Assembly (NCBI GenBank): GCA_025060105.1
Contig: JANXCS010000001.1
Span: 104,282-168,281 of the forward strand
Direction: 5' to 3'
Length of the DNA: 64,000 nucleotides
Source: Pseudothermotoga sp.
GTDB lineage: Bacteria > Thermotogota > Thermotogae > Thermotogales > DSM-5069
A program made the position numbers and the translations under genes. The notes beneath the pieces were generated by a model. That model saw only the letters and a program-made list of their open reading frames with translations. It searched no databases and was not told the origin of the DNA. This document shows positions 3,205 through 32,784 of the stretch, one piece after another (positions within the stretch are counted from its first letter, which is position 1; the number at the start of each line of letters is the position of its first letter).

Positions 3205-4211
3205 GATTCTCGATCCTGGGCGCCGGTAGTTGGGGAACAGCGTTTGCGAAGTTGCTCGCGGAAAATGGCCACGAAGTGCTCATCTGGGCCAGACGAGCCG
3301 AAGTTGCAGAAAAAATCAATAAAGAGCACAAGAACGAATATCTTGAAAGCATTGAGTTACCTAGAGCTATCAGAGCCACGACAGATCTGAACGAACTACA
3401 ACTGTTCTCTGATATTTTTGTACTTTCGATCCCTGTTAAGCACATCAGGGAAGTTGTGAAGCATGTCCAACCTCCCCCAAAAGTCGTTTTGAATCTGTCT
3501 AAAGGGATCGATGAGGATTTAAAAACCGTTAGTCAAATCATAAAAGATATCTGGCCAAGGTCATCATACGCTGTACTCTCAGGTCCGTGCCATGCAATCG
3601 AAGTTGCCAATAAATTTCCCACCGCTGTCGTGATTGCATCGAAAGATGTCGAGTTCGCCAAAACTATTCAACTTGCAGTGAGCAACTCATACTTCAGGGT
3701 ATATCTGAGTGAGGATGTCATTGGAGTGGAAATCTGTGGAGCTGTCAAAAACGTCATCGCCATAGCAGCCGGTATAATAGATGGTCTTGGTGGCTGGTAC
3801 AACGCGAAATCTGCGCTGATCACACGTGGTTTGCACGAGATGGTACGTTTTGGTCTTGCTTTTGGTGCGGAAAGTCCATTGACATTCATGGGGCTGGCTG
3901 GAATAGGGGATCTCGTGGTTACTTGTCACAGCCCATACAGTAGAAACAGACAAGTTGGAGAGAAGGTTGCTAGAGGTCTAAGGTTGGTTGACGTACTTTC
4001 TTCTATGAAAATGGTCGCTGAAGGTGTTCACACCGTTAAACCACTTCTAAAATTGGCGAAGGATTTGAACGTTGAAATGCCAATTTCTCGAGAGGTTTAT
4101 GAAATACTCTTCAATGGGAAAGACCCCAAATTGAGCATAGAACAACTAATGAGAAGACCTTTGAAGATGGAGAGCAATTTCATAGTAACTGACCTGCCGT
4201 CTTTTCTCTGA
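3201..4211 (+). CDS. gpsA: Glycerol-3-phosphate dehydrogenase [NAD(P)+]
   Basis: Reduces dihydroxyacetone phosphate to sn-glycerol 3-phosphate, the backbone precursor for phospholipids; cytoplasmic. The N-terminal Rossmann motif GAGSWGTAFA is followed by LNLSKGID, LSGPCHAIEV and the catalytic-domain segment CGAVKNVIAIAAGI. The 336-residue length is normal. The start is TTG, overlapping the trmB stop, behind GAGGTG. The 3' end overlaps the 3' end of dnaA on the other strand by 32 bp, with no terminator hairpin between them. Confidence 0.97.
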   Translation: MRFSILGAGSWGTAFAKLLAENGHEVLIWARRAEVAEKINKEHKNEYLESIELPRAIRATTDLNELQLFSDIFVLSIPVKHIREVVKHVQPPPKVVLNLSKGIDEDLKTVSQIIKDIWPRSSYAVLSGPCHAIEVANKFPTAVVIASKDVEFAKTIQLAVSNSYFRVYLSEDVIGVEICGAVKNVIAIAAGIIDGLGGWYNAKSALITRGLHEMVRFGLAFGAESPLTFMGLAGIGDLVVTCHSPYSRNRQVGEKVARGLRLVDVLSSMKMVAEGVHTVKPLLKLAKDLNVEMPISREVYEILFNGKDPKLSIEQLMRRPLKMESNFIVTDLPSFL

Positions 4212-5505
4212 AAAGTTCCTTGACTTTGTTCAACATCGATTCAAGGGATTTATTAGTCCTAAGACTGATTTCAAATTTTTGAATCGTGTTCGAGACTGTT
4301 GGATGAGATCTGTTGAACATCTCGGCGATCTTTCTGAGCGAAAGATTCATATAGTTCTTTGCTACGTACATACCCAGTTGTCGCGCGACGATCGCGCTAT
4401 CTTTCTTACAACTACCCTTGAGTTCTTCTGGTGTCACATTAAAAAGTTCGCAGAGGATATCGAATAACCTCGTTTCAACGGATTTACACTTTGGTTTGAC
4501 CGGTTCTATGGATAGGATCTGTTTTGCTCTGGAAAGATCTATCTCTTCATTGTAGATTTGCTTGTGCATCAACAGTTTAACGATAGCACCCCTGAGCCGT
4601 CTCAAATTATCATTGAAATGTTCTGCTATCAGTAACAAAACTTCTTCAGGGAGATCTCCATTTTCAAACATAACCATTTTTTGAGCTATTTTGAAGCATG
4701 TCTCTATGTCTGGTTTTTCTATTTTGACCACGACTCCCATTTGAAAGCGACTTATGAGCCTGTCTTGGAATCCATCAAGCATCTGTGGATCTCTATCTGA
4801 ACATATGACGATCTGTTTACCTGCATTGTAAAGTTCATTGAAGGTATGAAAGAGTTCCGTCTGAATTCCGTTTTTCCCTATGAGAAACTGTACATCATCC
4901 AGTAACATCACATCAATCTTGGATCTATAGCGTTCTCTGAATTCCTGAGTGGTACCTCGTTGAATAGCTTCTATCAGCTCGTTGAGAAAACGTTCACTGG
5001 TCAGATAAACCACCCGTAGTTCAGGTTTATGTTTGAAGAGATAATGTCCTATAGCTTGGAGTAAGTGTGTTTTCCCCAAACCAACGTCCCCGTAGATGAA
5101 GAGTGGATTATACTTGCCGGGATTCTTAGCTGCTTCAAGGCAAGCACTGTAAGCAAACATGTTACTTGGGCCAGTGACGAAGTTTTCAAATGTGAATATG
5201 GGATTTAGGGGTGTAAGAACGAGTGGTCTTTTTCTGACCAACGGCTCACTTTCGTCTTCCATCGGTTGATCTTGGAGAGGTGCGTATTCTATCTTAAAAT
5301 CAATGGAACGATTGAAGACCTCTTTGAGTGTCCGGGCTATGAGATTACCGTACTTCATCTCCAACCAGTCTTTTATGAAGAGATTCCCAACTTGAAAGAC
5401 GACACAGTTCTCCCCTATTTCCTTAACTTCGAAAGTACTGAACCAACTATCCCAAACCCGGCGGTTCAACTTCGCCTTCAAAGTTTCAATGATTTTCTCC
5501 TTCAT
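4180..5505 (-). CDS. dnaA: Chromosomal replication initiator DnaA
   Basis: AAA+ ATPase that opens the replication origin. I chose the ATG at 5505, giving 441 residues, close to the T. maritima protein; the longer open frame to 5655 crosses a likely promoter and the ferredoxin terminator. An AGGGG site lies upstream. Domain I spans about 1-90, followed by a short linker. The AAA+ core has Walker A GDVGLGKTHL and Walker B MLLDDVQF. Domain IV has a DnaA-type helix-turn-helix ending in FNRSHPTVSN, which differs from the common GGRDHTTV recognition sequence. No dnaN is adjacent. The neighbours are gpsA (convergent) and ferredoxin. Confidence 0.97.
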   Translation of the reverse strand: MKEKIIETLKAKLNRRVWDSWFSTFEVKEIGENCVVFQVGNLFIKDWLEMKYGNLIARTLKEVFNRSIDFKIEYAPLQDQPMEDESEPLVRKRPLVLTPLNPIFTFENFVTGPSNMFAYSACLEAAKNPGKYNPLFIYGDVGLGKTHLLQAIGHYLFKHKPELRVVYLTSERFLNELIEAIQRGTTQEFRERYRSKIDVMLLDDVQFLIGKNGIQTELFHTFNELYNAGKQIVICSDRDPQMLDGFQDRLISRFQMGVVVKIEKPDIETCFKIAQKMVMFENGDLPEEVLLLIAEHFNDNLRRLRGAIVKLLMHKQIYNEEIDLSRAKQILSIEPVKPKCKSVETRLFDILCELFNVTPEELKGSCKKDSAIVARQLGMYVAKNYMNLSLRKIAEMFNRSHPTVSNTIQKFEISLRTNKSLESMLNKVKELFREKTAGQLL

Positions 5506-5542
5506 GATGAGACCCCTATCTCTTTCGAGGTGAGCAATTACT

Positions 5543-5571
5543 ATTATGTCTCTAAATAAGTGTGGGATCAA
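5543..5571 (-). promoter_or_regulatory. Putative dnaA promoter
   Basis: On the minus strand, TTGATC (5566-5571) is separated by 17 nt from CATAAT (5543-5548), about 38 nt upstream of the dnaA ATG and downstream of the ferredoxin terminator. This is a sigma-70-like arrangement read by eye. Confidence 0.5.
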
Positions 5572-5626
5572 GGAACAGAATTGTTTATGTTCTAAAAAAC
5601 TTCCATCCAGGGGGTTAAAATGAGGG

Positions 5627-5651
5627 AAAAGAGGCGGGGTTCCGCCTCTTT

Positions 5652-5652
<1 letters not shown>
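5627..5652 (-). terminator. Rho-independent terminator of the ferredoxin gene
   Basis: A perfect inverted repeat with arms AAAAGAGGCGG and its complement around a short loop follows the ferredoxin stop directly and ends in a T run on the minus strand. It separates ferredoxin transcription from dnaA. Confidence 0.8.
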
Positions 5653-5855
<203 letters not shown>

Positions 5856-15686: not shown

Positions 15687-17212
15687 CGTTGGTTGTTGCA
15701 GTGATCTGTGCGCTTGCTGGTTTGTTTATAGGATATTCAATGGCAAAATCAGGTATAGAAAAGGCGTACAAACGAGCGCAAAAAGACGCTGAAAGTATCA
15801 TAAAGAAAGCTGAGCAAGATGCGGCCGAACTGAAGCGGAAAACTATTGTCGAAGCTAGAGAAGAAGTCCATAGGCTCAGAGAAGAGGTGGAAGCAGAGTT
15901 AAGGAGAAGAGAACAAGAAATCAGACTCATCGAAGAAAGGCTTTTGAAGAGAGAAGAGATGCTATCCAAGCGTGAAGAGATGGTTGAGAAAAAAGAAAGC
16001 TCTCTGGAACAGCTAAGGGTCCAGCTTGAAATGGCGAAACGGAAGATCGAGCAGAGGGAGAAAGAGTTGGATGAAAAGTTCACTGAACTTGCAGGTATGA
16101 CAGTTGAAGAGGCTAGGCAGATAGTTCTTGAAGAAGCTCGGAGCAGGTATGAGCATGACTTGGCGGTGATGTTCAAACAGATCAAGGAACGTTATGAGGA
16201 AGAAGCCGAGAAAGAAGCGAAAAAGATCATTGCTGCTGCGGTGCAACGGTATGCACCAGAATATGTTGGAGAAATCACTGTTTCAACCGTTAGCCTCCCC
16301 AACGATGAAATGAAAGGTAGAATCATAGGACGTGAAGGTAGAAACATACGAGCATTCGAAAAAATCACAGGTGTGGACCTAGTCATAGATGATACACCAG
16401 AGGTCGTTGTGCTATCCAGCTTCAATCCTATTCGTAGAGAGATAGCCCGCATCACACTTGAGAAGCTCGTTGCAGATGGAAGGATACATCCTGCAAGAAT
16501 AGAAGAAATGTATGAAAAGGCCAAACAAGAGGTGGAGAAAGCCATAAAAGAGGCTGGGCAAGAAGCTGTGTTGAAAGTAGGTGTGACTGCTATTCATCCA
16601 GAGCTGGTAAAATTGCTAGGAAAACTGAAATACAGAACGAGCTACGGTCAAAACGTTTTGGCGCATTCTATAGAGGTGGCGCAACTCGCTGCACTCATGG
16701 CTGAAGAGCTTGGTCTCGATGCTGAAAAAGCTAAGCGAGGCGGGTTGTTACACGACATAGGTAAAGCGCTAGACCATGAAGTGGAAGGTTCCCACACGGA
16801 GATAGGTACCGAAATCGTTAGGCGTTACGGTGAACCGGAATATGTAGTGAATATGATCATGAGCCACCATGGAGAAGTTGAACCAACTTGTCCGGAGTCA
16901 GTGTTGGTAGCCGCCGCAGATGCTTTGTCCGCAGCGAGACCTGGTGCCAGACGAGAGAGCTTGGAAAACTACATCAAAAGATTGGTGAAGATGGAGAAAA
17001 TCGCTATGGGATTTAAAAATGTCGAAAAAGCTTATGCGATACAAGCAGGAAGAGAGATCAGAGTTATTGTAGAACCAGACAAGGTGGATGATGCGGAAGC
17101 CGAGAAAATGGCCTACGAGATCGCGAAAAAAATCGAGGAAGAAGTGGAATACCCTGGGGTTCTCAAAGTAGTTGTGATAAGAGAAAAACGATCTATAGCG
17201 TACGCAAAATGA
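15683..17212 (+). CDS. rny: Ribonuclease Y
   Basis: Membrane-anchored endoribonuclease that initiates mRNA decay; 509 residues. The N-terminal membrane segment ([17 protein letters not shown]) is followed by a coiled coil to about residue 190. The KH domain contains [15 protein letters not shown]. The HD domain has [12 protein letters not shown] and [17 protein letters not shown] overlaps the recX stop behind GGAGG. It ends in a symmetrical terminator shared with pyrG. Confidence 0.98.
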
Positions 17213-17238
17213 GAGGGGATTCGATCCCCTCTCATTTT
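17206..17238. terminator. Bidirectional terminator between rny and pyrG
   Basis: A perfect inverted repeat with 15-bp arms (AAAATGAGAGGGGAT and its complement) and a 3-nt TCG loop. Each end gives a T run on its own strand. The TGA stop codons of both convergent genes lie inside the stem, so coding sequence and terminator overlap on both strands. Confidence 0.9.
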
Positions 17239-18821
17239 GACTGTACTGAGGAGAGATCCTCCATAGCCTTCAAAAGTCCAACAAAAATTGGATGAGGCTT
17301 TCCGACCTTTGTTTTCAACTCGGGGTGGTATTGAACGCCTACGAAGAATGGATGATCTTCAAGTTCTACAGCTTCGACGAAGTTTGATCTTGCGCTTATA
17401 ACCAGTTTGTAACCCGTCTCACCGGGTAACTTGAATAACTCCGGGAATCGATCGTGGTTCACTTCGTAACGATGTCTGTGTCTTTCGGTGATTTCTTCAG
17501 TTCCATTGTAGATCTGCCACAGTTTTGTTCCTTTCAATACACGCATAGGTTGGGCGCCAAGCCTCATTGTCCCACCGAGCTGTAGAATTTTCTTCTGTTC
17601 TTCCATCAGAGTTATCACTGGATATGGTGTGTCAGGATCGAATTCCGTTGAGTTCGCATTTCTGTAACCGAGAACGTTTCTTGCGAACTCTATAACCATC
17701 AGTTGCATCCCGAGACAAATGCCAAGTATCGGTTTTTTGTACTCTCTGGCGTATCTTATGGCCTTCATCTTTCCCTCAATGCCTCTCTTGCCGAATCCCC
17801 CTGGAATAATGAACCCATCGAATTCAGATAGAAACTCGCAGGTTTGTTCCCAGCTCATGTCTTCCAGACTCTGTGCATCAACGACCTTAGGCTTAACACA
17901 ACCAGACAAAAATACAGATTCGATGATGCTTTTGTAAGCATCGTCTGTTCCGAGATATTTTGCTATCAGTGCTATTTTGTAATGCTTGAAATTCTTAGGA
18001 TATTCCCAATTGAATTTTGAATCATTCAAATCTAGATTCAATTTTCTCGCAACTTTTTTGTGGACTTGGATCTCCTTCAGGAACTCTACGATGGAATAGA
18101 CGTTCGAGACATCCGGCAGGTTTATCACCATATCATATGGGACACCACCGAACAGTGCAACTTTCTTGATCGTTTCTGAGTTCACTGGTACTTCTGTCCT
18201 CACCACTATCATGTCTGGATTGAGCCCAGCCCTTCTGAGTAACTGTACCGATTGTTGTGTGGGTTTAGTTTTGAACTCATTCGATGTTTTCAAGTAAGGG
18301 ACGTACGTAACGTGGATGAACATGAAATCTCCGAATGGTTTTTCCAAAGCAAGCTGTCTGACGCTTTCCAAGAATACTTCACTCTCTATATCGCCAACTG
18401 TACCACCTATCTCTATCACATTCGCTTCACCTTCGAGAGAATCTATTCTTCGCTTTATTTCATCGGTTACGTGCGGTACTATCTGTACGGTTGATCCAAG
18501 ATAACCACCTTCCCTCTCACGCCTCACGACTGTGGAATAAACCTGCCCGGCCGTTATGTTGTTTTTCCTGCTCATATCTTCCCCGAGGAATCTTTCGTAG
18601 TGACCAAGATCTAGGTCAGCTTCATAGCCGTCTTCGGTGACGAAAACCTCACCGTGTTGATTTGGATTCATCGTACCCGCATCGACGTTGAGGTAAGGAT
18701 CTATCTTGAGAACGTTGACTTTGATACCGCATTCTTTAAGTAACCTGGCGAGAGAAGCGCAGAATATACCTTTGCCTACTCCACTGAGTACACCGCCTGT
18801 AACAACGATGAATTTTTTCAC
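17232..18821 (-). CDS. pyrG: CTP synthase
   Basis: Makes CTP from UTP and glutamine; 529 residues. The N-terminal synthase domain starts with KFIVVTGGVLSGVGKGI and includes IDPYLNVDAGTM. The C-terminal class I glutamine amidotransferase domain has nucleophile Cys in PILGICLGMQ and the His/Glu of GVQYHPE. GTG start follows GGAGGG and overlaps the upstream kinase gene by 4 nt. It is last in a five-gene minus-strand unit. Confidence 0.98.
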   Translation of the reverse strand: MKKFIVVTGGVLSGVGKGIFCASLARLLKECGIKVNVLKIDPYLNVDAGTMNPNQHGEVFVTEDGYEADLDLGHYERFLGEDMSRKNNITAGQVYSTVVRREREGGYLGSTVQIVPHVTDEIKRRIDSLEGEANVIEIGGTVGDIESEVFLESVRQLALEKPFGDFMFIHVTYVPYLKTSNEFKTKPTQQSVQLLRRAGLNPDMIVVRTEVPVNSETIKKVALFGGVPYDMVINLPDVSNVYSIVEFLKEIQVHKKVARKLNLDLNDSKFNWEYPKNFKHYKIALIAKYLGTDDAYKSIIESVFLSGCVKPKVVDAQSLEDMSWEQTCEFLSEFDGFIIPGGFGKRGIEGKMKAIRYAREYKKPILGICLGMQLMVIEFARNVLGYRNANSTEFDPDTPYPVITLMEEQKKILQLGGTMRLGAQPMRVLKGTKLWQIYNGTEEITERHRHRYEVNHDRFPELFKLPGETGYKLVISARSNFVEAVELEDHPFFVGVQYHPELKTKVGKPHPIFVGLLKAMEDLSSVQSK

Positions 18822-21596: not shown

Positions 21597-22754
21597 GTGC
21601 GAGTGCCATTGTTCGATATGACGCGGCAATACGGGTCACTCAGAGATGAAATATTGACCGCTGTTGATTCTGTTTTCAAATCCGGTAGGTTGATCATGGG
21701 TGAGAACGTTGAAAGATTCGAAGAAGAAATCGCAAATTATCTTGGCGTGAAACATGCGATAGGAGTTGCGAACGGTTCGGATGCTTTGTACATCGCAGTT
21801 AAATCACTCGGAATCACCCATGGAGATTATGTGATCACGACCGCATTCACTTTCTTTGCCACAGTGAGTTGTATCACTCGAAACAATGCTACACCTATTT
21901 TCGTAGACATTGACGAAGACACGTTCAACGTAGATTTGGATCAGATCGAGCATGTTTTAAGGACGCATCCATATCGTGAAAAAATCAAGGCAGTTATACC
22001 TGTTCATCTGTTTGGTCGAACCGTGGATCTAGAGAGATTGGAGTATATCAAACATACGTATCGAGTGAAGATCATAGAAGATTGTGCTCAATCGGTTGGA
22101 TCAACATGGCATTTCTCTAACGGTGAGATCAAGAAGAGTGGTAGTGTTGGTGATGTATCGATACTTTCCTTCTTTCCGACCAAAAATCTCGGAGCTCACG
22201 GCGACGGTGGAATGATTCTTACCAGCGACGATCGAATAGCAGATTTTTGTCGAATATTCAGGGTACATGGTGCTCGGGTGAAATATTTCCATGAGGTAGA
22301 AGGTATAAACAGTAGGTTGGATGAGGTTCAAGCTGCCATCCTGCGCGTGAAGCTTAAGAAACTCGATGAGTACCACCGGCGCAGGAGAGAAATCGCAAGA
22401 TTATACAACGAGTTGTTCGAAAAATTCGGATTAACACAACACATTGTATGTCCATCCCTTGGAAGGGATCTTGATTGTATTTTCCACCAGTACGTAGTCA
22501 GGGTCAAAAAAGGCCACAGGGACAATCTCAGGCTCTACCTTGAATCTAAGGGTGTGGAAACAGCGATCTACTATCCTTTAGGTATGCACAGACAAAAGTG
22601 CTTCTCTCATCTGCCGTCTGTGGAGCTCGAGAAAACCGACAGAGCTTGCAAAGAAGTTTTGGCTCTCCCCATGTTTCCAGAACTGCGTGAGGAAGAGATA
22701 GAGTACGTTGTCAGCTGTGTTAGAGATTACTTCAGGGAGGTATGTTTGTGTTGA
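21597..22754 (+). CDS. DegT/DnrJ/EryC1/StrS sugar aminotransferase
   Basis: PLP-dependent aminotransferase acting on a nucleotide-linked keto sugar; 385 residues. I place the start at GTG 21597, which gives MRVPLFDMTRQY, the usual family beginning, 9 nt after GGGAGG. A second GTG at 21603 with a closer GGGAGG is possible. The motifs GVANGSDALYIAVK, VIPVHLFG, IEDCAQSVGS and the PLP-Lys segment SFFPTKNLGAHGDGG are present. The next gene makes the uronic acid type of sugar, so the pair fits aminosugar acid synthesis for surface polysaccharide. There is no glycosyltransferase nearby. Confidence 0.9.
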   Translation: MRVPLFDMTRQYGSLRDEILTAVDSVFKSGRLIMGENVERFEEEIANYLGVKHAIGVANGSDALYIAVKSLGITHGDYVITTAFTFFATVSCITRNNATPIFVDIDEDTFNVDLDQIEHVLRTHPYREKIKAVIPVHLFGRTVDLERLEYIKHTYRVKIIEDCAQSVGSTWHFSNGEIKKSGSVGDVSILSFFPTKNLGAHGDGGMILTSDDRIADFCRIFRVHGARVKYFHEVEGINSRLDEVQAAILRVKLKKLDEYHRRRREIARLYNELFEKFGLTQHIVCPSLGRDLDCIFHQYVVRVKKGHRDNLRLYLESKGVETAIYYPLGMHRQKCFSHLPSVELEKTDRACKEVLALPMFPELREEEIEYVVSCVRDYFREVCLC

Positions 22755-24052
22755 GAGATAAGTTGATCAACAAAACAGCGATCGTGGGTGTGATAGGTTT
22801 AGGGTATGTAGGACTTCCACTCGCAGTTGAAAAAGCTAAAGCTGGTTTCACAGTGGTGGGTTTTGACATTCAAAAAGAACGGGTTGACAAAGTGAACCGT
22901 GGAGAGAACTACATTGGAGATGTGGTGCCTGAGGATTTAGAAAAGCTTGTGAAAGAAGGAAAATTATCAGCAACTACTGAATATGAAGCGATCAGAGATT
23001 GTGATGTGGTGACGATCTGTGTACCAACTCCTTTAGATGAGTACAAGCAACCCGATCTCACCTATGTAGTGAACACATCGAAAGAGATTGCCCTCAGACT
23101 GCACAAAGAAATGCTCGTAGTTCTCGAATCGACTACGTACCCTGGTACAACTGAAGAGGTGGTTAAACCAATTCTCGAATCGAGTGGTTTAAAATGCGAG
23201 GAAGATTTTTATCTCGCTTTCAGCCCAGAAAGGGTAGATCCAGGAAATTTGCTCTACAAAACCAGAAACACACCGAAAGTTGTAGGCGGTATCGGTGAGA
23301 AATCCACAGAACTTGCAAGATTGCTTTATGAAAGCGTGCTCGATGCGCCAGTGTTCGCAGTTTCTTCCGCGAAAGCAGCTGAAATGACCAAGATATTGGA
23401 GAACACTTTCAGGATCGTCAACATCGCCTTAGCGAACGAAATGGCGATTATTGCTGAGAAAATGGGAATAAACATTTGGGAGGTTATAGAGGCAGCTTCC
23501 ACCAAGCCGTTCGGTTTCATGCCCTTTTATCCTGGCCCAGGTGTTGGTGGACATTGCATCCCCATCGACCCTTTTTATCTCACTTACAAAGCCAGACAGT
23601 ACGGCTATCACACCAGACTCATTGAGCTTGCTGGAGAGATAAACGATTCGATGCCCGAGTATGTTGTGAACAGGGTGATGAAACTTTTGAACGAGCGAAA
23701 AAAGTGCCTCAATTCAGCTCGTGTTCTACTTTTGGGGATAGCTTACAAAGGTGATGTGGACGATGTGAGAGAGTCTCCAGCTTTGAAAGTGCTCAAGCTT
23801 TTGGAGGAAGAAAAAGCACATGTGATAGTGGTGGATCCATACGTTCAATCGTTCAAATGGAATAATGTCGAGAGAAAGACACAACCACTGACTGTCGAAC
23901 TTGCGCGATGGGCTGATATAGCGATCATAACTACAGCACACAAAAAGCGCGTCGATTATAGAATTTTAGTGGAGAACTGCCAGCTCATCTTCGATACAAA
24001 GAACGTTCTTAAAAGTTTCAATCTGCACGGACCAAATATCGTGGTGCTGTGA
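22748..24052 (+). CDS. UDP-N-acetyl-hexosamine 6-dehydrogenase (WecC/WbpA type)
   Basis: Oxidises a UDP-N-acetylhexosamine to the uronic acid with NAD+. 434 residues from GTG 22748, 7 nt after GGGAGG; ATG 22742 is only 1 nt from that site. Rossmann GVIGLGYVGLPLAVEKAKAG is near residue 15. Catalytic Cys lies in GVGGHCIPIDPFYL, the pattern of the N-acetylhexosamine branch rather than the UDP-glucose branch. C-terminal GIAYKGDVDDVRESPALK is also typical. The exact epimer (GlcNAc or ManNAc) is not decided. Confidence 0.92.
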   Translation: MLRDKLINKTAIVGVIGLGYVGLPLAVEKAKAGFTVVGFDIQKERVDKVNRGENYIGDVVPEDLEKLVKEGKLSATTEYEAIRDCDVVTICVPTPLDEYKQPDLTYVVNTSKEIALRLHKEMLVVLESTTYPGTTEEVVKPILESSGLKCEEDFYLAFSPERVDPGNLLYKTRNTPKVVGGIGEKSTELARLLYESVLDAPVFAVSSAKAAEMTKILENTFRIVNIALANEMAIIAEKMGINIWEVIEAASTKPFGFMPFYPGPGVGGHCIPIDPFYLTYKARQYGYHTRLIELAGEINDSMPEYVVNRVMKLLNERKKCLNSARVLLLGIAYKGDVDDVRESPALKVLKLLEEEKAHVIVVDPYVQSFKWNNVERKTQPLTVELARWADIAIITTAHKKRVDYRILVENCQLIFDTKNVLKSFNLHGPNIVVL

Positions 24053-24064
24053 GGGGGTGAAACC

Positions 24065-26116
24065 GTGGTTTGGTTCATACTGAGTTTGTTGGCAGGAGCA
24101 GGTTCAATGGTTCTCGCACTCATGTTGATGGTTTATGTTTTGAGGAAAGACACTGGAAACGACAGGATGAGGCAAATCCATGCAGCCATCAGAGAAGGGG
24201 CACTCGCTTATTTGAGGAGGCAAAACAAAACGCTCGCCATATTCGTTTTAGTGATGACCATCGTACTTGGCACAGTTGTGAGCTTTCTTAAGGGAGCAAC
24301 TATTGGTTTGTCAATGTCAATCGCTTACGTGCTTGGTTCAGCGTGCACGACACTTGCCGCATACCTAGGTATGAGAGCGGCCGTTGAGGCTAACGTCAGA
24401 GTTGCTGCTGCAGCTCAAAAAGGATTGAGATCCGCTTTTCCGATAGCTTACTACGGTGGAGCTGTAATGGGTTTGTTTGTGGTTGGAATATCACTGCTTG
24501 GTATATCGATTCTGTTTTTTGTGTTCAAAGTACTACTAGGTTGGGTCGATGCTGACGCTGTAACGGTGGTTTTAGGCTTCAGTTTTGGAGCCAGCGCTTT
24601 GGCTCTATTCGCCAAGGCTGGTGGGGGTATTTACACAAAGACGGCAGACATAAGTGCAGATCTGGTGGGAAAAGTGGAACTTGGGATACCCGAAGACGAT
24701 CCGAGGAATCCGGCAGTGATAGCAGACAACGTTGGGGATAATGTCGGAGACGTGGCGGGCATGGGCGCAGATTTGACGGATTCCTACATAGCAAGCGTGG
24801 TAGCTACGATGATCATTGGCGCTGAAATGGCGAACGAGACACTCACCGTCTTACCCCTGACGATAGCGGCGGCGGGTCTGTTCGCTTCGATACTTTCGCT
24901 GATGTTTGTTGCACGTAGTATCAAAAGAAGTCCCGGTAGAGCTCTGAATCTCGGCACGTTCTTGACATGCTTTATCTTCGTCGTGTTTCTGTTCTTCACG
25001 ACACGGTTCTCTAACCTTGAAGGCGATTCTTGGTTGGGCGTTTTTCTACCCACTCTGGCCGGCCTCGGAGCAGGTATGGTGATAGGACTCACTTCGGATT
25101 ACTTTACATCCATAGAAAAGAAACCGACTAAAACCATTGCTGAAGCATCTGTTACGGGCACCGCAATAAACATACTCATGGGTTTTTCATACGGCATGAT
25201 CAGCATCGTTCCACCAATTTTGTGTATCGCTACTGCAACCATCGCCGCTTGGTACTTAGCTCAAAGATTTGGAATAGATCCATTTTATGGCATAGCGTCG
25301 GCAGCACTCGGGATGTTATCGATCGTAGGCACTGTGATTTCCGCCGACGCTTATGGTCCAATTTCTGATAATGCCAAAGGTGTCGCAGAACAATCCGGCT
25401 TGGGTGAAGAAGTGGTAGCTGTGACGGACATGCTCGATGCGGCCGGGAACACTTCTAAAGCCATAACGAAAGGTTTCGCTATAGGTTCTGCGGCTCTCAC
25501 AGTTCTCGCTCTGTTTGCTGCCTATGCACACTTGGTTGATATAAAAACGCTGGAGCTCATGTCACCGAGAGTGATCGCTGGCGTATTCATTGGTGCAATG
25601 ATGCCACCGTTGCTATCAGCAATGCTGATTTTGGCCGTCAGTAGAAATTCTGAAAGGATGATTGAAGAAATAAGAAGACAATTCCGTGAGATACCTGGTT
25701 TGGCGGATGGAAAAGCGAAGCCAGATTATGCGAAGTGCGTTGATATAGCTACAGCCGGTGCATTGAGAGAACTTCTGCTCCCCGGCATAGTCGCCATTGT
25801 AGCACCAGCGTTGACTCTTGTAATACTCGGTAGAGAAGCTCTTGCTGGTTTTCTCGCTGGTAGTATAGTGAGTGGGATCATATTTGCACTCTTCATGGCT
25901 AACGCTGGTGGAGCTTGGGACAATGCAAAAAAGTATATAGAAGAAGGACACTTCGGTGGAAAAGGCTCTGAGGCACACAAAGCTGCGGTCGTTGGTGATA
26001 CGGTCGGAGATCCATTCAAAGATACTGCTGGCCCTTCTCTCAACACTATGATCACTGTGATGTCTCTGGTTGCGGAAGTTTTTGCACCATTGTTGTTGCT
26101 GATTTTGAGTCGGTGA
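24065..26116 (+). CDS. hppA: Membrane-bound pyrophosphatase ion pump
   Basis: Polytopic pump that couples pyrophosphate hydrolysis to H+ or Na+ export; 683 residues and about 16 hydrophobic segments. The substrate-site motifs [24 protein letters not shown] and the C-terminal [17 protein letters not shown] are intact. Lys465 and Thr468 in [10 protein letters not shown] match the K+-independent subclass, which in characterised members is H+-pumping; the T. maritima enzyme TM0174 is K+-dependent and Na+-pumping. The ion-gate position that is usually Glu in (F/Y)E(S/T)Y is Asp239 here (LTDSY). It follows the sugar dehydrogenase by 12 nt. The pumped ion is an inference. Confidence 0.96.
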
Positions 26117-26120
26117 GAGG

Positions 26121-27617
26121 ATGCAACTTTTCTTAGACGAACCGACCAGGTCTTTCACAATGCTCGACGAAATCTTAGAACCATTCAAACCAAAAACGCC
26201 ATATGGAAGAAAGACCATAGAAATGCTTTCCTGTGTTTTGGCGTCGGAACAGCAATTTCATTCCCATTGGTACAGGTTGGAAAGAGTTCTCAAGCAAAAC
26301 GAAGAATTCATATCAAGTGTGGAGAGGATTCTGGAAAGAATACCAGATCTGAGTCATCAAATTGAGAACGGTTTTGTTGAAATATCAGATTTTGCGAAGT
26401 TAAAGAAGTTCGTGTACAATTTTTCATCACTTTACACGTTGGCAAGCTCAGTATGGGACCTTCCAGATGTGGATGACATCTGGAAGGTTCTATTTCATTT
26501 TTTCGGTGATGGGGAGATTCTACAGCTTCAATCAGAAAAGTTACTAGCGCTGAGGAAAGCTCATTTGATTCTCTCTGATCAATTGAAGAAGGAATTTTCT
26601 CGGCTCTGCCGTGAAATTAACAGTTTGATTGGTTTGAGACCAAACAACGAAGAGTTCACTATCCAAGCACAAATTGGTAAAAAGCTCATCGATCACGGTT
26701 TGGCGCAATTGGTGAAAGATTATGGAGAAAGATGGCATCTGCGTCTCATTGAAACGGAGAAGATGCTTCAACTAAGGCAAAGCATGAAGCAACTAGAGGA
26801 AAAGATGGAGCTTGAAGCTGAGGAATTGTTGGATGAGGTCAGAAAACAAATACAAGCTCACCTCGATTTGCTCAAGTTGTGTGAGAAAGCTGTCACAATT
26901 GTGGACATTGATCTGTGTCGTTACAGAATGTATTCTCGCTACAATTGTTGTCGCCCAGAAGTTGGTAACCAAATTCGAGTGATCAATGGTAGGTTTATTC
27001 CTGTGCTTGAATACTGTGAAGCGAAAGGTTACACCTACTATCCGATGAACATTGAAGTGAAATCGGGAGTGACAGTGCTCTGCGGACCGAACATGGGTGG
27101 AAAAACTACAGCTCTCAAGACTGTAGGAGCCTTCGTAGCTTTGTTTCATCTTGGCTTTCCCATTCCTTCGGAGTACTTTTCAAGTCCTGTTTTTAGTAAT
27201 GTTCGTTTCATCTCGAAAGGAGAGGAAATAGGTTTCAGTTCATTCGCTAGGGAGATTCGCTCTTTCATACGAGCTCTTCAATGTCATGGTAGAAAGCTTC
27301 TCCTGTTTGACGAATTCGGAACGAGTACGAACCCAGTTGAAGGGGAAGCACTCACGCTGGCAATCGTTGAGCATTTTTCCGACTCACAAGACTATGTTTT
27401 GCTCAGTACGCATTATCCACGCGTTGTATCAGCAGCCAAAAACGTCTACAGTTGCGGTAGAATAAAGAATCTTGAAGAAGAAGACCCACACAGAATGCTT
27501 GATTATTCTCTCGTCCCAGGTGCAAAACATGTTGAAAAGATCGCCCTGAAGCTTGCTGAAAAACTTGGTGTGCCTTCCGAAATCGTCAAGAAAGCTGAAA
27601 ATTATTCTGGGGGTTGA
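26121..27617 (+). CDS. MutS-like ATPase without mismatch-recognition or Smr domains
   Basis: A protein of 498 residues. The C-terminal third is MutS domain V: Walker [13 protein letters not shown] at about 322-333, Walker [17 protein letters not shown], and STHYP. The N-terminal part is helical and lacks the mismatch-recognition domain; there is no Smr nuclease domain as in MutS2. The NPVEG ending resembles MutS-like ATPases that accompany B12 aminomutases (KamC/OraS), so repair function should not be assumed. Start is ATG 26121, but GAGAGG is directly adjacent; ATG 26160 is an alternative. A strong hairpin lies inside the gene at 26455-26491. xseA follows immediately. Confidence 0.85.
26455..26491 (+). 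other. Strong intragenic hairpin in the MutS-like gene
   Basis: The arms 26458-26470 (ACCTTCCAGATGT) and 26476-26488 are perfectly complementary over 13 bp with a 5-nt GGATG loop. In RNA the stem extends to about 16 bp with G-U pairs. A T-rich stretch follows at about 26500. It lies in coding sequence, so its role is unknown. Confidence 0.8.
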
Positions 27618-28819
27618 GCTTCATAGACCGTGTTTACAGTGTCAGTGATATCACCTTTTACATCGAAAATTTGTTTCTGGGTGATCCAAAACTGACCGAT
27701 GTCACGGTCGCAGGTGAAGTGATTGATTGTAAAAGCAGAAACGGTCATTTGTTCTTTTCATTGAGGGATGACTATGCGACCATTGGTTGTATCCTGTTTG
27801 GAGGAGCGTACATGGGAGTCTCAATTATGGATGGTCAGATGGTTCAGGTTACCGGTGATGTGAGGGTTTATGCGCTCAGGGGACAATACAGGCTCCTTTG
27901 TAAGCGTTTGAAATTGCTTCCGAGTCGAGGTACTATGTTTTTGAAACTCAAGGAAACATACGAACGATTGAGCAAACTCGGCTTGTTCTCGAAACCCAAG
28001 AAATCACTACCAAAATTCCCTTCAAAAATAGGCGTAATAACTTCAAGAAATTCGGCAGCTTTTCAAGATATACTCAGAACGATCTCGGAGAGGTTTCCCT
28101 TTGTAAAGGTTGTGCTCTATCACACCGCTGTACAAGGCGAGGAAGCAAAGAGAGAATTGATGAAAGCATTGCTTGATGCTAACTCTGATGAACTCGATGT
28201 GGTCATAATTGCTAGAGGCGGAGGAGCTACGGAAGATCTCTGGTTGTTCAACGATGAAGAAGTGGTTATGGTTGTTCATTCCATGAGGCATCCAGTGATC
28301 ACAGGTGTTGGTCATCAGATAGATACAGTTTTGGTGGATCTAGTGGCAGATGTGGCTGCACACACTCCAACTGCGGCTGCTCAGTACGCGGTACCGGACA
28401 TCAGAGAAATAGTCGAAAAAGTGAGGCATTCTTTAAAGTTATCTTTCGTCAACTTAATGACAACTTGGAACAATGCAAATGAGCGTTCTAAAGAACTCTT
28501 GAAGGAAGCGAGAAGAAATTCAATTGATTTGCTGCAGAGATTCGAGATGCGCTTGAAATCGAAATTCGGTGAATTGAAATCTCTGTTGGAAGACAGGATT
28601 GACTCTTTGGAACGAAATCTCGAGTTACTCAGGATAAAGCTAGATTTATTGAATCCAATGAACGAATTGAATAGAGGTTATGTGATTGTGGAGAAAAATG
28701 GAGTAAAGGTGAGATCGAAGAACGAGTTAAACGAAAACGATATACTTTTGCTGAGGTTTCACGATGGGTCAGTGAGGGTGATCGTCGATGAAGATAGAAG
28801 AATTGATGAACGAACTTGA
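27614..28819 (+). CDS. xseA: Exodeoxyribonuclease VII large subunit
   Basis: Catalytic subunit of the single-strand-specific exonuclease VII; 401 residues. An N-terminal OB-fold domain (VTVAGEVIDCKSRNGHLFFSLRD) is followed by the nuclease domain with IGVITSRNSAAFQDIL, IIARGGGATEDLWLFNDEEV and ITGVGHQIDTVLVD. The C-terminal region is a long helix that binds small subunits. TTG start overlaps the preceding stop just after GGGGG; the exact start is not certain. Confidence 0.96.
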   Translation: MSFIDRVYSVSDITFYIENLFLGDPKLTDVTVAGEVIDCKSRNGHLFFSLRDDYATIGCILFGGAYMGVSIMDGQMVQVTGDVRVYALRGQYRLLCKRLKLLPSRGTMFLKLKETYERLSKLGLFSKPKKSLPKFPSKIGVITSRNSAAFQDILRTISERFPFVKVVLYHTAVQGEEAKRELMKALLDANSDELDVVIIARGGGATEDLWLFNDEEVVMVVHSMRHPVITGVGHQIDTVLVDLVADVAAHTPTAAAQYAVPDIREIVEKVRHSLKLSFVNLMTTWNNANERSKELLKEARRNSIDLLQRFEMRLKSKFGELKSLLEDRIDSLERNLELLRIKLDLLNPMNELNRGYVIVEKNGVKVRSKNELNENDILLLRFHDGSVRVIVDEDRRIDERT

Positions 28820-29024
28820 AAGGATCGTAGAGTTATTGAACTCGCAGAATTTGACCTTGGATGAATCTTTAAACATGTACAAAAGAGGTGTTGAAATTTA
28901 CAGAAAGTTGCAAGAAGCATTAAAGAGCATCAAAGTTGAGATAGAAGATTTATATGCACAGTTACAACACGATGGGGTGGAGAACGATGGTGACAATCGA
29001 CCAACTGAAGGACGCAACGATTGA
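28788..29024 (+). CDS. xseB: Exodeoxyribonuclease VII small subunit
   Basis: A helical protein of 78 residues that wraps the XseA C-terminus. Family pattern: ELERIVELLNSQNLTLDESLNMYKRGVEIYRK. It overlaps xseA by 32 nt and dxs by 38 nt. The C-terminal 20 residues are hydrophilic and variable. The xseA-xseB-dxs order is common in bacteria. Confidence 0.95.
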   Translation: MKIEELMNELERIVELLNSQNLTLDESLNMYKRGVEIYRKLQEALKSIKVEIEDLYAQLQHDGVENDGDNRPTEGRND

Positions 29025-30867
29025 AGATTTGAAGCTTTTTGCAGAGTTAATAAGAAAAAGAATCATCGAGGTTGTCTCAAAGAATGGGGGGCATTTAGCT
29101 TCCAACTTGGGTGTGGTCGAGTTGACGCTAGCTTTGTATAAAGTATTCGATCCAAAAGAGGATGTGATCGTATGGGACACATCACATCAATGTTACACAC
29201 ACAAGCTTTTGACTTACAGGTGGAACGAATTTTCTACCTTGAGAATGCTTGGTGGAATAAGTGGTTTCAATTGCCTCAAGGAAAGTCCGCTGGATAGATT
29301 TGGCGCCGGACACGCCGGAACAGCTCTGGCCGCTGCTTTAGGGATAGAGAGAGGTCTGAATTTATTGGGAAAAAAGAGAAACGTTGTTGTCGTACTCGGT
29401 GATGGGGCACTCACGAACGGAGAAACTTTGGAAAGTTTGAACCAAATGAAAAGTATGAATTCAAAATTGAAGATAATACTCAACGATAACGGCATGTCCA
29501 TAGCTCCGAACGTCGGAGCTCTCTCGGAAATGTTTGCAAAATTACGTACGAATCAAGCTTACGTGACTTTCAAAGGTTTAGTAAAGAAGGTGCTGGAGAG
29601 CTCTTCTGTTGGAAGAAACGTTGAAGAGGAGCTGAAAAAGATCAAGGAAGGATTGAAGCAGTTCATACAAGGAGTGGACTTTTTCGAGGCGTTAGGTTTG
29701 AAGCACATTGGACCGGTGGACGGTCATGATTTGAAGTTGTTAATTGAGATTTTCGAAAGAATAAAAAGCTACGATTACCCCGTTTTAGTGCACGTTGTAA
29801 CGCAGAAAGGTAAGGGATACAAACCAGCAGAGAGGGATTGTGTTTTCTTCCATAGTTCCCCAAAGTTCGATCCAGAGTCGGGTGAAGCTTTAACGGTTCA
29901 TGGTCAGATTTCCTACAGTGAAGTTTTTGGAGAGACTCTCTTGAGGTTGGCTCAGAAAAACGAAAGATTGATCGCTATAACTGCTGCTATGCCAGACGGG
30001 ACAGGCTTAAGAAAGTTTGCAAACACCTTTCCTAAAAGATTCATTGATCTTGGTATCACGGAGCAATCATGTGTGACTTTAGCTGCCGGACTGGCGAGTG
30101 TTGGATTCAGACCAGTTGTTGCCATATACTCGACTTTCCTACAGAGGGCGTACGATCAAATCATTCACGATGTGGCGCTTCAAGATTTGGATGTGATATT
30201 CGCTGTGGATCGAGCAGGTTTGGTTGGTGAAGATGGGCCAACTCATCATGGCATCTTTGATATTGCATTCTTTCGAACTGTCCCGAAAAGTAGGATCTTT
30301 ACACCATCGAGTTTGCAAGAACTTGTTGATTTGTTAAGGACTGTGGTTGAAACGAACGTGAAAGGAACCGTTGCGATCAGATACCCTAGGCAAACGGAAA
30401 CGGCAAACTTCGAAGAATTATGGCAAAGATCAAAGTTGATAGATCCATTTCGTTGGGAGATAGTCAAGGAAGGGGGCAGTGTAGCTTTTCTAGCCGTTGG
30501 TACAATGTTAAAAAATGTTTTGGAGGCTAATCTCGATGCCACTGTGGCATATGTAAGATGCGTCAAGCCGCTGGACGAAGAAACTTTGATGAAAATTGCA
30601 GAAAATCACGAACTTATAGTCACAGTAGAGGAAGGAATCATCAACGGAGGGTTTGGAGAATCAGTGTTGAGTTATCTCAATGGTAAAGGTTTACATAGAA
30701 AAGTGCTTTTGATAGGTATAGGCGATCAATTCGTTCCACACGGTAGCAGAGAGGAGCTCCTAAGGTTATCTGAGCTTGATCCCGAGAGCATTCGTAATCG
30801 TGTGGTATCATCTTTTGGAAAGGAGGTTGAAACACGTGGTATTCAAGTTGGAATACGGAGATCTTGA
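28987..30867 (+). CDS. dxs: 1-deoxy-D-xylulose-5-phosphate synthase
   Basis: Thiamine-diphosphate enzyme that condenses pyruvate and glyceraldehyde 3-phosphate, the first step of the MEP isoprenoid pathway; 626 residues. The ATG at 28987 follows GTGGAG; the open frame begins earlier at 28954, but without a good site. ThDP motif GDGALTNGE...ILNDNGMSI is present, with the transketolase pyrimidine-binding region (RFIDLGITEQ) and DRAGLVGEDGPTHHG. Other MEP genes are not in the window. Confidence 0.97.
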   Translation: MVTIDQLKDATIEDLKLFAELIRKRIIEVVSKNGGHLASNLGVVELTLALYKVFDPKEDVIVWDTSHQCYTHKLLTYRWNEFSTLRMLGGISGFNCLKESPLDRFGAGHAGTALAAALGIERGLNLLGKKRNVVVVLGDGALTNGETLESLNQMKSMNSKLKIILNDNGMSIAPNVGALSEMFAKLRTNQAYVTFKGLVKKVLESSSVGRNVEEELKKIKEGLKQFIQGVDFFEALGLKHIGPVDGHDLKLLIEIFERIKSYDYPVLVHVVTQKGKGYKPAERDCVFFHSSPKFDPESGEALTVHGQISYSEVFGETLLRLAQKNERLIAITAAMPDGTGLRKFANTFPKRFIDLGITEQSCVTLAAGLASVGFRPVVAIYSTFLQRAYDQIIHDVALQDLDVIFAVDRAGLVGEDGPTHHGIFDIAFFRTVPKSRIFTPSSLQELVDLLRTVVETNVKGTVAIRYPRQTETANFEELWQRSKLIDPFRWEIVKEGGSVAFLAVGTMLKNVLEANLDATVAYVRCVKPLDEETLMKIAENHELIVTVEEGIINGGFGESVLSYLNGKGLHRKVLLIGIGDQFVPHGSREELLRLSELDPESIRNRVVSSFGKEVETRGIQVGIRRS

Positions 30868-31168
30868 AGTGAGCTTGAAAGCGCTGAAGAAGCTTGCTTA
30901 CATAGCGACTCTGCAAAGTTATGGTCCTGTGAACATCTCCTCGGACAGTTTTTTCGGAAAGTTGTTCGGTGAGAAAGAGGAAGAAAGAATCAAAGTTGAA
31001 GAGCACGATAATGGGAAAATCGTAGTTGATATTTACATAGAAGTGGAGTATGGTGTGAAGATCACCGAAGTGGCCAAGAACATCATGGAGAGCGTTTCAC
31101 ATGTCATGCGTAGTGTTGGCGGTTGTGAAGATGTTGAAGTCAATGTACACGTAACGGGTGTTCGTTGA
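30836..31168 (+). CDS. Asp23/Gls24 family protein (YloU type)
   Basis: A protein of 110 residues from GTG 30836, 9 nt after AGGAGG; the longer frame to 30776 has no support. The family core is YIATLQSYGPVNI, a short variable loop, KIVVDIYIEVEYGVKITEVAKNIMESVSHVM and VEVNVHVTGV. In Firmicutes the yloU gene precedes yloV (fakA-like) exactly as here. The role is not settled; it is thought to partner the downstream protein or work at the membrane. The start is inside the dxs 3' end. Confidence 0.9.
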   Translation: MVFKLEYGDLEVSLKALKKLAYIATLQSYGPVNISSDSFFGKLFGEKEEERIKVEEHDNGKIVVDIYIEVEYGVKITEVAKNIMESVSHVMRSVGGCEDVEVNVHVTGVR

Positions 31169-31182
31169 GGAGGTGCCCGCAA

Positions 31183-32784
31183 TTGTCGAAAGTGAATGGC
31201 AAATTCATGAAGCTCGCGTTTGAGAAAGGAACTGAAGAACTCGCTCTTCATGTTGATGAACTCAACGCGTTGAATGTTTTTCCAGTCCCAGATGGAGACA
31301 CTGGCTCAAACATGCTCGCAACGATGAGGGAAGGGTGTAAATACTTAGAGCAACTGACAAAAACTGATTTGCAATCTGTTATGGAAGCCATAAAGAATGG
31401 TACGCTCATGGGAGCGCGTGGAAATTCCGGTGTGATTCTCTCCCAGGTTTTCAGAGGTTTTGCCATCTATTGTGAGAAAAAGAAAACATTGGAACCAAAG
31501 GATATACTGGGGATGTTCAAGGAAGCCAAGAATGTCGCTTATAAAGCCGTCATCAAGCCAGTCGAGGGTACCATACTCACGGTGCTGAGGAGGATTGTGG
31601 AGCGCTCGAGCGAGGCAGAGAATTTACAAGACTTTTCAGAACTGTTTCGTTGGATCGTGCAGGTGGCGGAAGAAACAGTTCGAGAAACACCAAAATTACT
31701 GCCTGTGTTGAGGGAAGCAAATGTGGTTGACGCGGGTGCGAAAGGGCTTTTCTATATTCTCAAAGGTTTTTATGCTGCGGCACTCGGTGAACAAGCAAAT
31801 TTAGAGCTTGTGACCAGTGTCACGGGAGAAGTGACGATCGAGTTACCCCAGGAAGAACTGACGTATCAATATTGCACGGAGGTGATGATAAAAAGAGAAA
31901 ACAGTTTTTCTGGTGCGGATATAGAAACCTTCAGGAACTTTTTGGAAAAACTTGGAGATTCCGCCGTAGTAGTGCACGACGTGAATGTTTTAAAAACGCA
32001 CGTGCATACGAACAATCCTGGTTTAGTCATAGAGGAAGCACTGAAGTACGGAGAAATCTTGAAAGTCAAGATAGACAACATGAAATTACAGCACGAACAT
32101 GTGGTACAACAAGTTGAGCAGAGGAAAAAGTATGGATTCGTCGCGGTCTCACCGGGACAAGGCATTAGCACTGTACTGAGAAACCTCGGTGTAGATCAAA
32201 TAGTTCGTGGTGGGCAAACGATGAATCCAAGCACGGCTGATTTGAAAATCGCCATCGAAAAGGTGAATGCTGATGTGGTCTTTGTTTTTCCCAACAACCC
32301 AAACATTCAGTTGGCTGCGAAACAAGCAGCAGAACAGATCAACAATAAAAAGATCTTTCTGATACCAACAAACACGGTTCAAGAATGCATTTCCGCGATG
32401 ATGGCGTTCGACCCCAACGAGTCAGAAGAAACGCTTTTCAAAAAATTCAACGAGGCTGCTGGTTATATAATCGCCTTGAGCATCACGAAAGCTGTGAGGG
32501 ACGCAAAGCATAACGGCACGAAGATCAAAAAGGGAGAATATATGATAATGAAAGGAAAATCCCTGGTAGCGCATGGTCAATCGTTGAAACAAGCTTTACA
32601 TAGAGCTTTGTTAGCTTTAGACTTAAGGGGAAGGGAAGTCGTTACTATCTTTAAAGGTCAGGAAGCCTCCGATGAAGAGGTGTCGATTTTGGAAAATGTC
32701 TTTCAAAAGGTTATGGAAAATCCTCAGATCGATATCTATGAAGGAGGTCAACCGCACTATCCATACCTGTTGATGATCGAATGA
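31183..32784 (+). CDS. DAK2 (YloV/FakA-type) kinase domain protein
   Basis: A protein of 533 residues from TTG 31183, 9 nt after AGGAGG; the TTG at 31165 is upstream of that site. N-terminal DhaL/DAK2 nucleotide-binding domain with NVFPVPDGDTGSNM and MGARGNSGVILSQ, which bind Mg-ATP. The C-terminal DegV-like half has VVVHDVNVLKTHVHTNNPG, GQGISTVLRNLGVDQIV and FVFPNNPNIQLAAKQA. In Gram-positive bacteria FakA with FakB phosphorylates exogenous fatty acids. No FakB (DegV) gene is near, so this role is a tentative extension. The stop abuts the tdh stop (TGATCA) with no terminator. Confidence 0.9.
   Translation: MSKVNGKFMKLAFEKGTEELALHVDELNALNVFPVPDGDTGSNMLATMREGCKYLEQLTKTDLQSVMEAIKNGTLMGARGNSGVILSQVFRGFAIYCEKKKTLEPKDILGMFKEAKNVAYKAVIKPVEGTILTVLRRIVERSSEAENLQDFSELFRWIVQVAEETVRETPKLLPVLREANVVDAGAKGLFYILKGFYAAALGEQANLELVTSVTGEVTIELPQEELTYQYCTEVMIKRENSFSGADIETFRNFLEKLGDSAVVVHDVNVLKTHVHTNNPGLVIEEALKYGEILKVKIDNMKLQHEHVVQQVEQRKKYGFVAVSPGQGISTVLRNLGVDQIVRGGQTMNPSTADLKIAIEKVNADVVFVFPNNPNIQLAAKQAAEQINNKKIFLIPTNTVQECISAMMAFDPNESEETLFKKFNEAAGYIIALSITKAVRDAKHNGTKIKKGEYMIMKGKSLVAHGQSLKQALHRALLALDLRGREVVTIFKGQEASDEEVSILENVFQKVMENPQIDIYEGGQPHYPYLLMIE

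Follow-up and report, generated by a model that had tools for sequence, protein, structure and literature searches.

We analysed a window of 64,000 nucleotides from a Pseudothermotoga sp. genome (the whole stretch of DNA considered here, in whose numbering all positions are given unless stated otherwise). A long hairpin lies in frame inside a gene for a protein with a MutS domain V, more than 1.1 kb ahead of the end of that gene. The features of the locus are as follows.

24065-26116, + strand: hppA, membrane pyrophosphatase, the upstream neighbour (Pfam H_PPase)
26121-27617, + strand: host gene, encoding a KamC-like protein of 498 aa with a MutS domain V (Pfam MutS_V; NCBIfam ATPase_KamC)
26453-26493, + strand: hairpin, 18 nested pairs including G-U, with 18-nt arms at 26453-26470 and 26476-26493
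26455-26491, + strand: the part of the hairpin described in the original prediction, 16 nested pairs
26458-26488, + strand: unbroken run of 13 Watson-Crick pairs, with the loop that they enclose (26458-26470 with 26476-26488)
26471-26475: 5-nt loop of the hairpin
26494-26503, + strand: T-rich tail, 8 T of 10 (pattern scan)
27614-28819, + strand: xseA, the next gene downstream, which overlaps the host gene at its end (NCBIfam xseA)
28954-30867, + strand: dxs-like ORF, further downstream

The host gene and its neighbourhood

The host gene lies between hppA and xseA-dxs, where the original prediction had placed it. The order degT-like gene, UDP-sugar-dehydrogenase-like gene, hppA, host gene, xseA, dxs-like ORF and further genes is kept in seven of eight neighbourhoods (the names degT-like, UDP-sugar-dehydrogenase-like and dxs-like are putative, given from the sequences rather than from a family search). 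The eighth, on a 6.6-kb contig (L059), has the host gene and xseA-dxs in order, with hppA not adjoining. The dxs-like ORF is in place in all eight.

The description of the host gene as MutS-like holds as far as its Pfam MutS_V domain is concerned, but the protein is better described as KamC-like. Its best NCBIfam model is ATPase_KamC (NF052383; 260.4 bits over residues 15-495 of 498), ahead of the MutS2 model (136.8 bits). KamC is the reactivase ATPase of lysine 5,6-aminomutase, and the likeness to its model extends over nearly the full length of the protein. Unlike KamC proper, however, the host gene scores below the curated cut-off of 300 bits, and it is located apart from the aminomutase gene in this genome (contigs C1 and C11, respectively). 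The cut-off is exceeded in none of the 11 family genomes. All nine family members match both the KamC and the MutS2 models (best E-values of 4.8e-84 and 2e-43).

The aminomutase alpha subunit (PF09043) is present in 10 of the 11 family genomes. G002 has neither PF09043 nor the host gene; in G006 PF09043 is present and the host gene was not found. Across the class, the host gene is matched at E<=1e-32 in 23 of 103 genomes (one match, in G031, is partial). A PF09043 match occurs in all 23 of these, versus 58 of the 80 others, counts in which the G024 match is a fragment and some of the 80 have only a second type of match, of 730-760 aa. The partial host-gene match in G031 ends 40 bases before a PF09043 match on the same strand. 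On the model scores and this co-occurrence, the product of the host gene is probably an ATPase of the KamC type and not a repair protein. Among the papers listed by literature searches for KamC, we recognised none as treating that protein; MutS does not occur in the main text of a paper on P. elfii under pressure (PMC10057702).

Pairing, stability and rarity of the hairpin

The hairpin exists as first described (13 perfect base pairs, 16 with G-U, and a 5-nt loop), and two more A-T pairs extend the stem from 16 to 18 pairs. The RNA fold of 26440-26510 has an energy of -30.1 kcal/mol, compared with -16.1 +/- 2.7 kcal/mol for dinucleotide-shuffled sequences (z -5.14), and none of 200 shuffles was as low as the native fold. 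In a 350-nt context, the probabilities of all 18 pairs are 0.78-1.00 at 37 C and 0.48-1.00 at 70 C, the latter being the assumed growth temperature. At 70 C the stem has an energy of -12.5 kcal/mol and forms a stable stem-loop. G-C accounts for seven of the 18 pairs, and the base of the stem, where it adjoins the tail, consists of weak A-U and G-U pairs.

Such a stem was expected to be rare by chance, and this is borne out by a survey of 304,000 bases (the window and 12 stretches of 20 kb from the same 1.92-Mb contig). With G-U pairs allowed and loops of 3-8 nt, the hairpin is the longest found (18 pairs; the runner-up has 16). Counting Watson-Crick pairs only, it is second, behind a 16-bp hairpin at 17205. 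Hairpins with at least 11 perfect pairs and a loop of 3-8 nt number 11 in these 304,000 bases; a crude ORF rule, which assigns 293,652 of the 304,000 bases to coding sequence, places four of them in coding regions, the present one included. Of the other three, those at 5626 and at L067:4310 are at the 5' ends of a DnaA-like and an ABC ATPase ORF, respectively, both probably over-extended, and the third (L060:4143, 11 pairs) is well inside a 448-aa ORF. Among 883 gap-free windows of 15 codons (step 5, 12 genes), the hairpin site ranks first in stability, in this genome and also in the sum over four congeners.

The hairpin at 5626-5653, with 12 perfect pairs, sits where a DnaA-like ORF (4180-5655, minus strand) begins and is probably outside the real coding region of that ORF.

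Conservation, peptide constraint and codon choice

We identified full-length orthologues of the 498-aa protein in nine of the 11 family genomes, that of the window included. In the other two, G006 (81% complete) and G002, we saw MutS paralogues only; both were left out, so that the within-genus tests cover four of the five genomes of the genus. The nine orthologues align without a gap at the hairpin codons. None of the 32 viral stretches that fit a pattern encodes a relative of the host protein.

Both the pairing and the distribution of the hairpin can be followed directly in these genes, as can its dependence on the peptide. Within the genus the pairing is present in the close orthologues: among the 13 outermost of the 16 pairs (26455-26467 with 26479-26491), L003 keeps 13, L004 12 and L005 13, and of the 13 perfect pairs, 12, 11 and 11 are paired, respectively. 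L003 and L005, which are 92% identical to each other, show changes that keep pairs (G-U to G-C and A-U to G-U). In L004, however, the stem is broken by a synonymous change (CTT to CTA) that leaves the peptide intact. Only one of the four members of the next genus keeps the stem (L008, with 12 of the 13 outer pairs and one C-G changed to U-A). Counted over all 18 pairs of the window, 15 are found in L003, 15 in L004, 14 in L005, 14 in L008, 13 in L009, 10 in L006, nine in L007 and eight in L010. The site folds differently in L006, L007, L009 and L010; the peptide is changed in L006 (WTFL) and L007 (ELP and WKKL). In 13 genes at a greater distance (26-30% identity) there is neither peptide nor stem, and the fold energies of the aligned stretches range from -4.0 to -14.4 kcal/mol. 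In the nucleotide alignment proposed as a check on the hairpin, most pairs are kept within the genus, so that the absence of pairing in close orthologues that was to count against it is not seen there; one member breaks the stem silently, and the number of kept pairs is not significant when codon choice is tested (p 0.11, below).

The peptide at the site is W-D-L-P-D-x4-W-K-V-L, in which the codons of D-L-P and W-K-V can be mutually complementary. GAC CTT CCA (D-L-P) is the reverse complement of TGG AAG GTC (W-K-V), and GTT also works, with a G-U pair. When synonymous codons were redrawn, the four congeners had mean energies of -11.6 to -13.0 kcal/mol; the observed values are -29.0, -22.5, -16.1 and -23.7 kcal/mol.

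We also resampled whole codon columns from a pool of 12 genes of the four congeners, drawing columns with fewer than five equivalents codon by codon. With the window included, which had been chosen for its hairpin, p was 0.0002, the floor of the test. Without it, the three other congeners jointly gave p 0.0016 (0.0010 with a pool of two genes only). Taken singly in this codon-column test, L003 gave p 0.006, L005 0.003 and L004 0.15. L003 and L005 count as practically a single lineage, which is the main carrier of the codon-level excess.

The peptide does not account for all of the stability in the congeners, to which codon choice also contributes: in a test conditioned on the window's own codons, the congeners are more stable than expected (p 0.0022). 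Shared ancestry makes a small contribution, though not nil, because codon identity between the window and its congeners at identical residues is 0.42-0.44, versus 0.34-0.35 if codons were independent. For calibration, we ran the conditional test with 400 draws at each of 40 non-overlapping sites, the most stable ones in the 12 genes; in the test and its calibration, columns with fewer than five equivalents were left as observed. For energy, p<=0.01 was reached at one of the 40 sites, which is the hairpin site itself (p 0.005). For the count of kept pairs, p<=0.01 was reached at two of the 40, both elsewhere, and the hairpin gave the p of 0.11.

Four codon positions are free to vary without loss of the peptide. 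Across three other lineages with the peptide, pairing is favoured at 11 of 12 such positions (5.65 expected, P 0.0005), and in the genus alone at seven of eight (3.75 expected, P 0.011), by a count devised after the sequences were seen. On the nine-row alignment, two figures that relatedness inflates are the share of cells that pair (71.6%; six of 500 shuffles as high) and the covariation score (0.227; reached by five of 500). Seven pairs have changes on both sides, a number reached in 29 of 500 shuffles. Further pair types amount to 15 on this alignment, which is no increase, since 345 of 500 shuffles reach that number.

Among the 883 windows, the conserved coding window that ranks second in stability is in hppA (24065-26116), at aligned codon column 170. 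It has an energy of -22.9 kcal/mol here and -14.4 to -19.6 kcal/mol in the congeners, and the conditional codon test gives p 0.13 for energy and 0.06 for pairs.

Interpretation of the stem and its T-rich tail

From the sequence comparisons, the hairpin is real, rare and apparently largely explained by the protein, with signs of selection within one genus that are suggestive but mixed. On balance, and by a modest preference, we favour the reading that the hairpin is an ORF-internal palindrome that arises mainly from a peptide with self-complementary coding potential and has no function of its own. The conserved W-D-L-P-D-x4-W-K-V-L allows self-complementary codons for D-L-P and W-K-V, and in this genome the free codon positions have also come to carry bases that pair, which brings the stem to 18 pairs. 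On this reading the stem would not require a dedicated function. We prefer this reading because the stem fades as the peptide changes, because L004 breaks it silently and because the tail follows the peptide. In its favour are also the -11.6 to -13.0 kcal/mol that remain with redrawn codons and the results for L004 alone (p 0.15) and for kept pairs (p 0.11). Counting against it are the codon-level excess (p 0.0016, 0.0022 and 0.005), the 11 of 12 free positions and the nine-row shuffles. The extra codon bias may be due to chance or residual shared ancestry, and translating ribosomes would presumably hold the stem open in ordinary growth.

The T-rich stretch that had been noted after the stem is present. 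The sequence 3' of the 18-bp stem is TTCATTTTTT, in which the T run begins only after TTCA, and it codes for F-H-F-F. In the congeners the tail is weaker (L003 and L005) or absent (L004). A terminator pattern scan matches the site of hairpin and tail, and such patterns are not enriched as a class in 22000-32000 (seven found versus 8.2 expected). The stem, at -12.5 kcal/mol, is as stable at 70 C as four intergenic terminator-like stems of the same genome (-9.8 to -12.3 kcal/mol). In this respect, and in having a stable stem followed by a T-rich tail, the site is like an intrinsic (Rho-independent) terminator. It is unlike one in being in frame and more than 1.1 kb before the gene end, in the A-U and G-U pairs at the base and in the loss of the tail in L004; termination here is a proposal made from sequence. 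A search with Rfam 15 at gathering scores gave no match in the window.

A candidate internal promoter at 26392-26420 was also considered. It is one of 13 promoter-like sites where 14.3 are expected by shuffling, which provides no evidence for a promoter.

The leading alternative is that the stem is a genus-level RNA element under selection and acts as an attenuator masked by translation. We regard it as possible, though clearly less probable than the palindrome imposed by the protein. With ribosomes close behind RNA polymerase the stem could not form; if translation of the host gene lagged, it would form ahead of the tail and some of the transcripts would end, lowering expression of xseA and dxs. 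Ribosome coupling suppresses intrinsic terminators in E. coli (PMC5021804). The codon-level excess in the congeners, the stability at 70 C, the eight T in ten and the order hppA, host gene, xseA, dxs in seven of eight neighbourhoods are consistent with such an attenuator. However, the tail is the part that weakens in L003 and L005 and is missing in L004, the base of the stem beside it is A-U and G-U, and the kept-pairs test gave p 0.11. The synonymous break in L004 and the presence of the stem in just one of four members of the next genus also argue against it. Framed more broadly, as a genus-specific RNA switch in a kamC-like gene whose conserved protein codons also make up a hairpin, formed only when translation lags, that then ends or cuts the hppA-kamC-xseA-dxs transcript, the idea is tentative and, in our view, rather doubtful.

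Selection of the stem for some other role appears unlikely. The stem might be a site of RNase cleavage or protection, or might pause ribosomes and so aid folding of the protein; none of these roles would need the tail, and the stem is indeed better kept than the tail. The same codon-level evidence applies. RNA ends inside ORFs, including ends from processing, are reported to be frequent in E. coli (PMC7815308). The ORF-internal ends and ORF-derived small RNAs described there resemble the present case in that a structured coding segment would serve both protein and RNA, but there the ends and some functions were measured, whereas the present hairpin is known from its letters alone. A selected role is again countered by the silent change that breaks the stem in L004 and by the stem's loss outside the genus.

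A feature at the DNA level, either an inserted repeat or a palindrome of the operator kind that a dimeric protein would bind, would suit the 31-base stretch of perfect 13-bp arms around a 5-bp spacer, but it is highly improbable given that the gapless orthologues share the peptide and the 71-base stretch matches only once in the genome. The insertion that the original prediction had offered as one origin of the stem is ruled out, as is a mobile repeat, because nine family genes align without a gap at the hairpin, and the stretch is single-copy.

If the stem is selected, a thermophile would have a single stretch that acts at once as coding sequence and as RNA signal, in an operon that includes dxs. 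If it is not, the case shows how a conserved RNA element can be mimicked by a short peptide whose codons are mutually complementary, which calls for caution in scans that rely on hairpin conservation.

Two other hairpins of the survey also have features of terminators. The perfect 16-bp hairpin at 17205-17239, with a 3-nt loop, is outside called ORFs and looks like a two-way terminator, with AAAA and TTTT flanks within its arms. The hairpin at L067:4306-4341 (16 pairs with G-U) has TTTTTT at its 3' end, is located just ahead of an ABC ATPase gene and is likely a terminator or leader element.
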